From a virus: 41,646 nucleotides of DNA. Below the pieces are notes generated by a model, which worked only from the letters and a program-made list of their open reading frames with translations, was not told where the DNA came from and did not search any database. Shown one piece after another: positions 1,801-2,764 of the stretch (the stretch's first letter is position 1; each line of letters opens with the position of its first letter). The stretch spans positions 1-41,646 of IMG/VR virus record IMGVR_UViG_3300044825_001141. One strand, 5' to 3'. The position numbers and the translations under genes were made by a program.

Positions 1801-1916
1801 ATACCACGATGGGCCTAGCGCAGCCTGCCCGCGAAGCCCCACGAAAGCACAGGCCAGCGGCGGCAGGCATTGCCGCTGGATGCGCAACTGATTCGTCGGC
1901 AGAGCGTCAGGGGTAA
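1797..1916 (+). CDS. Short coupled ORF before the methyltransferase (39 aa)
   Basis: ATG 1797 overlaps the previous stop (ATGA), and its TAA overlaps the methyltransferase start as TAATG, so the frame exactly bridges the two genes. The product is Ala/Arg-rich with no recognised domain. The bridging, rather than homology, is the evidence. It may serve mainly to carry ribosomes to the methyltransferase, whose ribosome site (AGGGG) lies in its last codons. Confidence 0.5.
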   Translation: MNTTMGLAQPAREAPRKHRPAAAGIAAGCATDSSAERQG

Positions 1917-2764
1917 TGCGTGTCCTCGACCTATTCAGCGGGATCGGCGGATTCAGCCTCGGCCTTGAGCGAGCCGGGATGCGAACCGTGCAGTTCGTCG
2001 AGATCGACCCGTTCTGCCGCGCCGTCCTCGCGAAGCACTGGCCCGACGTGCCCTGCCACGACGACATTCGGACCTTTCACGCTTCCGCTGGATTTGCCGA
2101 TGTCATCTGCGGAGGGTTCCCCTGCCAGGACATCAGCACCGCGGGTAAAGGGCTCGGCCTTGCGGGCGAGCGCAGCGGCCTATGGCGCGAGTACGCGCGA
2201 CTCATTGGCGAAGTTCAACCGCGGTTCGTACTCGTGGAGAACGTCGCAGCATTGCTTAGTCGAGGGCTTGGCGAGGTTCTCGGAGACTTGGCCTCGCTCG
2301 GGTATGACGCGGACTGGCACTGCATACCAGCTTCCGCCGTTGGTGCCCCTCACCGCAGGGACCGAGTGTGGATCGTGGCCTACGCCTCGTGCGAACCAGG
2401 CAATGGCAGCGAGGATGACGCCCCGAGCGGCGTGGGACACGAAGCGGTATCCGAACTTAGAAACGGTGGTGGCCCGCAGGCTTTGGCCGACGCCGACCGC
2501 CAACGACTGGAAAGGCAGCGGCCCGACCGTGATCCGGAAGGATGGGAAAGACCGATCGTGGGACCGGCTGGACTATGCGACGGAGCAAGTTACCAACCCG
2601 GATGGTGGGCATCTGAACCCAGCGTGGGTCGAGTGGCTGATGGGGTTCCCAATCGGGTGGACAGACTGCGAGCCCTCGGCAACGCCGTTGTCCCAGCCAT
2701 CCCCTATCTGCTCGGATGTAGCGTGATGCGTCGCACTGATGGCTCCTCCGAGGGTCGCACATGA
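1916..2764 (+). CDS. DNA (cytosine-5) methyltransferase
   Basis: A C5 cytosine methyltransferase of 282 residues that transfers methyl groups from S-adenosylmethionine to cytosine in DNA, probably shielding the phage genome from host restriction. Visible motifs are motif I (DLFSGIGGFSLGLERAG, residues 5-21), motif IV with the catalytic Cys70 (GGFPCQDIS), motif VI ENV at 108-110, motif VIII (HRRDRVW, 146-152) and motif X (GNAVVP, 255-260). The target-recognition segment between motifs VIII and X is short, about 85 residues, which is typical of compact phage enzymes. No partner endonuclease is present, so it is an orphan enzyme. A second frame across the same DNA also looks family-like (see 2100-2726). 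Confidence 0.95.
   Translation: MRVLDLFSGIGGFSLGLERAGMRTVQFVEIDPFCRAVLAKHWPDVPCHDDIRTFHASAGFADVICGGFPCQDISTAGKGLGLAGERSGLWREYARLIGEVQPRFVLVENVAALLSRGLGEVLGDLASLGYDADWHCIPASAVGAPHRRDRVWIVAYASCEPGNGSEDDAPSGVGHEAVSELRNGGGPQALADADRQRLERQRPDRDPEGWERPIVGPAGLCDGASYQPGWWASEPSVGRVADGVPNRVDRLRALGNAVVPAIPYLLGCSVMRRTDGSSEGRT
2100..2726 (+). CDS. Candidate overlapping gene in a second frame of the methyltransferase
   Basis: This frame is open from GTG 1920 and has an ATG at 2100, giving 208 residues. Its sequence is not random: it contains SWRTSQHCL, RFSETWPRSGM, two SWPTP/LWPTPTAND blocks, and LNPAWVEWLMGFPIGWTD. As I remember it, these are hallmarks of a widespread phage protein family often annotated as a methylase or hypothetical protein. 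The same bases encode the normal methyltransferase C-terminus, including motif X, in the other frame. No clear ribosome site precedes 2100. It could be a true dual-coding gene or a conserved shadow frame. Confidence 0.45.
   Translation: MSSAEGSPARTSAPRVKGSALRASAAAYGASTRDSLAKFNRGSYSWRTSQHCLVEGLARFSETWPRSGMTRTGTAYQLPPLVPLTAGTECGSWPTPRANQAMAARMTPRAAWDTKRYPNLETVVARRLWPTPTANDWKGSGPTVIRKDGKDRSWDRLDYATEQVTNPDGGHLNPAWVEWLMGFPIGWTDCEPSATPLSQPSPICSDVA

Follow-up and report, generated by a model that had tools for sequence, protein, structure and literature searches.

Two reading frames over the same DNA in a phage genome most likely each encode one half of a single DNA methyltransferase, and the locus is very probably, judged from its sequence, a dual-coding gene for a split, two-subunit (alpha/beta) C5 methyltransferase of the M.EcoHK31I kind. 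Each frame is a genuine gene under selection, and frame two is not a shadow of frame one. The split arrangement, known from a few enzymes, is widespread in phages. A large class of phage genes annotated as "DNA cytosine methyltransferase" appears to encode only part of an enzyme, the remainder being hidden in another frame and often unannotated. If such an annotated gene were cloned or codon-optimised by itself, the product would probably be inactive. The locus is also among the clearer measurable cases of dual coding, which can be measured here because different parts of the gene have different main coding frames.

The window, meaning the whole stretch of DNA that was analysed, is a virus record of 41,646 bases with tailed-phage genes (IMG/VR IMGVR_UViG_3300044825_001141), and the alpha and beta features described here are on its plus strand. 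The frame-one gene, alpha (1916..2764), begins with the ATG at 1916 and encodes 282 amino acids, which match PF00145 of Pfam (E=2.7e-42, covering residues 1-159) and phrog_363 of PHROG (E=5e-84). Its product has what identifies a C5 methyltransferase, namely motif I, motif IV with its PCQ (GGFPCQ, 2111-2128), motif VI (ENV, 2237-2245), motif VIII (GAPHRRDR, 2342-2365) and the fold of the catalytic domain. In all it carries motifs I-VIII and motif X, the latter with the C-terminal helix as RLRALGNAVVPAIPYLLG (2663..2740), and it lacks motif IX. The frames in the remainder of the window (5519-41546), read by eye only, look like those of a tailed phage, with terminase-like, portal-like, structural, primase/helicase-like and YqaJ/RecT-like products.

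The second gene, beta (2100..2726), lies in frame two, +1 relative to alpha, and encodes 208 amino acids from a likely ATG at 2100; its frame is open from a GTG at 1920 to the stop at 2726, and a start upstream of 2100 is possible. The N-terminal part of beta (2100..2383) runs over alpha motifs IV-VIII, is constrained in both frames and contains SWRTSQ (2232-2249) and FSETWPRSGM (2277-2306). It is followed by a variable segment (2387..2602) in which beta is the main coding frame, where target recognition is probably encoded in the beta frame and which includes WPTPTANDWKG (2484-2516), and then by the motif IX-like LNPAWVEWLMGFPIGWTD (2613..2666), found in the beta frame only and nearly invariant in 88-90 sequences. 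A preliminary description of this DNA had reported two frames over the same bases, and both were found in place with every frame-two motif that it quoted; it was also right that the two C-terminal motifs share their DNA, as LNPAWVEWLMGFPIGWTD overlaps the frame-one stretch running into motif X, RVADGVPNRVDRLRALGNAVVP. Its view of frame two as a separate phage family held in one respect only. A family does exist: phrog_1008, known from phages and labelled "DNA methyltransferase", is matched by beta with E=1.7e-33 and E=8.7e-34 in two comparisons, and its profile matches 88/88 beta sequences (best 7e-39), with no family found for beta in Pfam or NCBIfam; the protein is not an unrelated one, since it carries the motif IX that frame one is missing.

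Selection on frame two was assessed in 80 viral relatives that were collected using the frame-one protein alone, so that frame two played no part in choosing them. The beta frame was open in all 80, with a length of 126-370 codons, and a pattern for LNPxWVEWLMGFPxGWTD matched in the +1 frame of 72, while a motif IX pattern matched in frame one of none of the 80. Near-duplicates were removed to leave 74 sequences, and in each gene the synonymous codons of frame one were shuffled with one another. Across alpha codons 64-248 the +1 frame of these 74 relatives contained 4 stops, compared with 249 expected from the shuffles, in support of the earlier suggestion that the dual coding is real. In the same set there was no stop depletion in the +2 frame (606 vs 589 expected), in any of the three antisense frames or in the +1 frame upstream of beta (151 vs 142). 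The segment over motifs VI-VIII (alpha codons 106-157) had 0 beta-frame stops against 97 expected and a beta identity of 0.572 against 0.316, and beta identity was likewise raised in the WPTP segment (0.418 vs 0.172 expected; for alpha, 0.272 vs 0.234) and in the IX segment (0.713 vs 0.293). The reciprocal test supports frame one in the same manner, with an alpha identity of 0.819 over codons 252-264 (motif X) where 0.237 was expected from beta.

The synonymous codons of alpha are frozen at the sites that beta needs. Gly129 is encoded by GGG in 72/72 relatives and Gly243 by GGG in 71/72 (background 19%), while Val240 uses GTG in 67/69 (background 28%) and Pro235 uses CCC in 69/71 (background 31%). 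As a negative control, 15 ordinary bacterial C5 methyltransferases from a phylum-wide draw had 83 stops in the +1 frame over motifs IV-VIII, with 82.3 expected.

The AlphaFold2 model of alpha has a pLDDT of about 95 for residues 1-160 and the motif X helix, falling below 50 for 161-165 and 168-240, and its best fold match is M.HhaI (E=5.9e-16). By this pattern of confidence and the M.HhaI match, alpha looks like a catalytic domain that lacks the small domain used for recognition, in place of which the model has what looks like a disordered loop. A C5 methyltransferase of the ordinary type has motif IX and a recognition domain in the same chain; in frame one of the 80 relatives no motif IX pattern was found, and over the variable segment the alpha residues 161-165 and 168-240 are modelled as disorder. 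Beta, for its part, covers the segment that holds the target-recognition region in ordinary enzymes. The reading of LNPxWVEWLMGFPxGWTD as motif IX is based on the pattern itself and on a weak profile match (E=1.8), in which the beta profile hit only two plant DRM C5 methyltransferases in the PDB, at LEPDEVEMLLGFPKNHTR, in their motif IX region. The model of beta was poor (pLDDT 61.5, pTM 0.28), a fold search with it returned no match, and its low confidence leaves no usable fold result for beta; a profile-profile comparison of beta with alpha found no relation.

Since the C-terminal motif of beta is the motif IX absent from frame one, alpha and beta probably belong to a single enzyme as its subunits, as in M.EcoHK31I. 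Among the three options that the preliminary description had offered, real dual coding is supported and a shadow frame is rejected; it missed this relation between the subunits and motif IX. Alpha would bind SAM and catalyse the reaction with motifs I-VIII and would also hold the motif X helix, and beta, begun inside alpha near motif IV, would contribute motif IX and probably target recognition. Beta would presumably be translated as a separate chain, bind alpha and set the specificity, the two chains together making up an active enzyme. This enzyme would probably methylate the phage's own DNA and so may protect it from host restriction.

M.EcoHK31I, from the work of Lee, Kam and Shaw in 1995, is reportedly a C5 methyltransferase of two polypeptides for YGGCCR. 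Its beta gene lies inside the alpha gene in another frame, and it is part of a restriction-modification system, whereas the pair in the window belongs to a phage. The larger subunit of M.EcoHK31I contains motifs I-VIII and X and the smaller only motif IX, and the predicted recognition domain was assigned to the larger subunit (PMC3404938). Compared by description, the window pair is similar, with I-VIII and X but no IX in alpha and an IX-like motif in the second-frame product; the recognition segment, however, is dominated by beta here and was placed in the larger subunit there. M.AquI and gp49/gp50 of Streptomyces phage Samy are also C5 methyltransferases in two parts, with the break after motif VIII. 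In both, motif X accompanies motif IX in the second subunit, unlike the window, where X is in alpha. Samy gp50 is annotated phrog_1008 and, as in the window, is read in a frame that overlaps the gene of the N-terminal subunit.

Totally overlapping C5 methyltransferases were described in Streptococcus thermophilus phages, with MM1 and Tn5252 cited (PMC5601072), and the record of S. pneumoniae phage MM1 is annotated with alpha and beta subunits. The 5093-group phages, MM1 and Tn5252 resemble the window in that one stretch of DNA is read in different frames for two products (PMC5601072), but frame one of MM1 and of 5093 encodes a complete enzyme that includes motif IX, and the C-terminal end of the +1 product differs from that in the window. 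Overlapping genes are also annotated in E. coli phage K1ind2 ("Mte8-like protein") and Paenibacillus phage Shelly ("g55 internal gene"), both of the same frame-two family (phrog_1008) as beta, and the phrog_1008, K1ind2 and Shelly records give no analysis of function or selection. Given these earlier reports, this kind of overlap was already known. The present analysis adds the quantified selection on the two frames, the switch of the dominant frame, evidence for a recognition segment mainly in beta, the spread over phages and bacterial contigs and the comparison with enzymes of the MM1 type and of the ordinary type, and no papers describing these points were found among the open-access literature.

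The MM1-type enzymes are complete, single-chain C5 methyltransferases of Firmicutes phages with motif IX in frame one, here taken from L334 7480-8637 (MM1), L333 6067-7026 (5093) and L335-L470, 61 of them non-redundant. In these 61 enzymes the +1 frame has 0 stops over codons 62-180, compared with 343 expected, and its amino acids are conserved, while past codon 180 it is unconstrained; the product of about 130 amino acids spans motifs IV-VIII and has no motif IX. The window-type beta profile matches this second frame at E about 1e-12. This looked like homology, but the shadows left by synonymous shuffles scored alike and all shuffles were beaten in only 3/25 sequences. With a similarity no greater than that of shuffled shadows, a common protein family is not claimed, and the frame-two proteins of the two classes may have arisen independently. 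The caution that a shadow can by itself produce family-like similarity was in general sound, as the shuffles reproduced a match of this strength.

The MM1-type enzymes keep a selected overlapping frame although motif IX is in alpha, so the supply of motif IX is not the only possible role for such a frame, and its function in these enzymes is now directly testable. It could be, at slightly less than an even chance, that +1 overprinting has been repeated and is old in phage C5 methyltransferases, with or without a beta-supplied motif IX, so that at least one hidden class does something other than complete an enzyme. The same selected frame without IX is what favors beta in the window being an independent overprinted protein, such as a regulator or a protein that inhibits some host function, and not a subunit. 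That is nevertheless improbable for the window class, whose alpha has neither motif IX nor an ordered small domain and whose beta contains an IX-like motif where one would be expected along the DNA.

The switch of the dominant frame was followed through substitution rates by codon position in close pairs, 90-98% identical. Over codons 1-58 the third position of alpha changes fastest. In the variable segment it is the wobble position of beta that does so, at 0.435 compared with 0.236 and 0.263. The beta wobble position also leads in the IX segment, at 0.153 against 0.048 and 0.018, the last being the third position of alpha. Frame two is the main coding frame from codon 158 to 251, and this movement of the fastest position from the alpha wobble to the beta wobble means that the dominant frame runs one, two, one. 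The order of the motifs along the DNA is that of an ordinary enzyme, with I-VIII in frame one, recognition and IX in frame two, and X in frame one. A switch near codon 158 is also what would be seen if programmed frameshifting alone expressed frame two, as a single chain with I-VIII from frame one and recognition and IX from frame two. Frame two, however, is constrained from about codon 62, about 95 codons ahead of the switch, which argues that it is read from an upstream start, and the frameshifted chain would lose motif X; on these two grounds such a chain is very unlikely. Beta begins near alpha codon 57-62 in most relatives, and several close the frame just 5' of a start codon there, which also speaks against frameshifting. 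An ATG lies within codons -19 to +4 of the position of 2100 in 87/106 relatives, and no strong ribosome-binding site was found upstream of the candidate beta starts.

A beta-profile search of bacterial genomes and viral contigs returned 160 loci, 156 of which, including many on bacterial contigs, encode a full alpha in the -1 frame; among the 160, no clearly free-standing copy of beta was seen. It had been feared that frame-two homologues would occur only antiphase to methyltransferases, and in this the fear was borne out; that they would show no constraint beyond that imposed by frame one was the opposite of what was found, given the stops, the identities, the frozen codons and the shift in wobble position. 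An untranslated shadow of a well-conserved methyltransferase gene, with its family a mis-annotation, would fit the antiphase position of all homologues seen and a shadow similarity reaching E about 1e-12, yet it is scarcely credible, and the mis-annotated or neutral frame of the preliminary description is rejected, since stop depletion affects a single frame and only within the beta interval, synonymous codons are frozen, the wobble position shifts to frame two and ordinary C5 methyltransferases have no comparable effect.

Within the split class the annotation is uneven, the beta frame being present and unannotated in Acinetobacter and Lacticaseibacillus phages. In Samy, alpha stops after motif VIII, and motifs IX and X are both in beta. 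A Kiritimatiellae contig (L244, 2100-3600) is the cellular-contig counterpart of this arrangement, its alpha stopping after VIII and its overlapping frame two holding IX and X in one chain. Two further loci (L229 and L313) were considered as different designs and rejected, as they look like local frameshifts in the contigs.

Three loci have inserts between motif IX and motif X (L018 3184-3609, L030 3660-4004 and L061 3600-4300). An HNH-like endonuclease insert sits in the beta frame, matching phrog_2340 (2.5e-7) and phrog_1271 (5.7e-7) in L018; the alpha frame is open through the insert, and a second copy of EPDVRRVAHG...LGNAVVPQ lies downstream. The inserts of L018 and L061 continue from beta, and that of L030, for which no family match was found, starts from a separate ATG downstream of the beta stop. 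Mycobacteriophage methylases are described with an out-of-frame HNH insertion, the "ShiLan domain" (PMC11855218), which the inserts in these three loci resemble.
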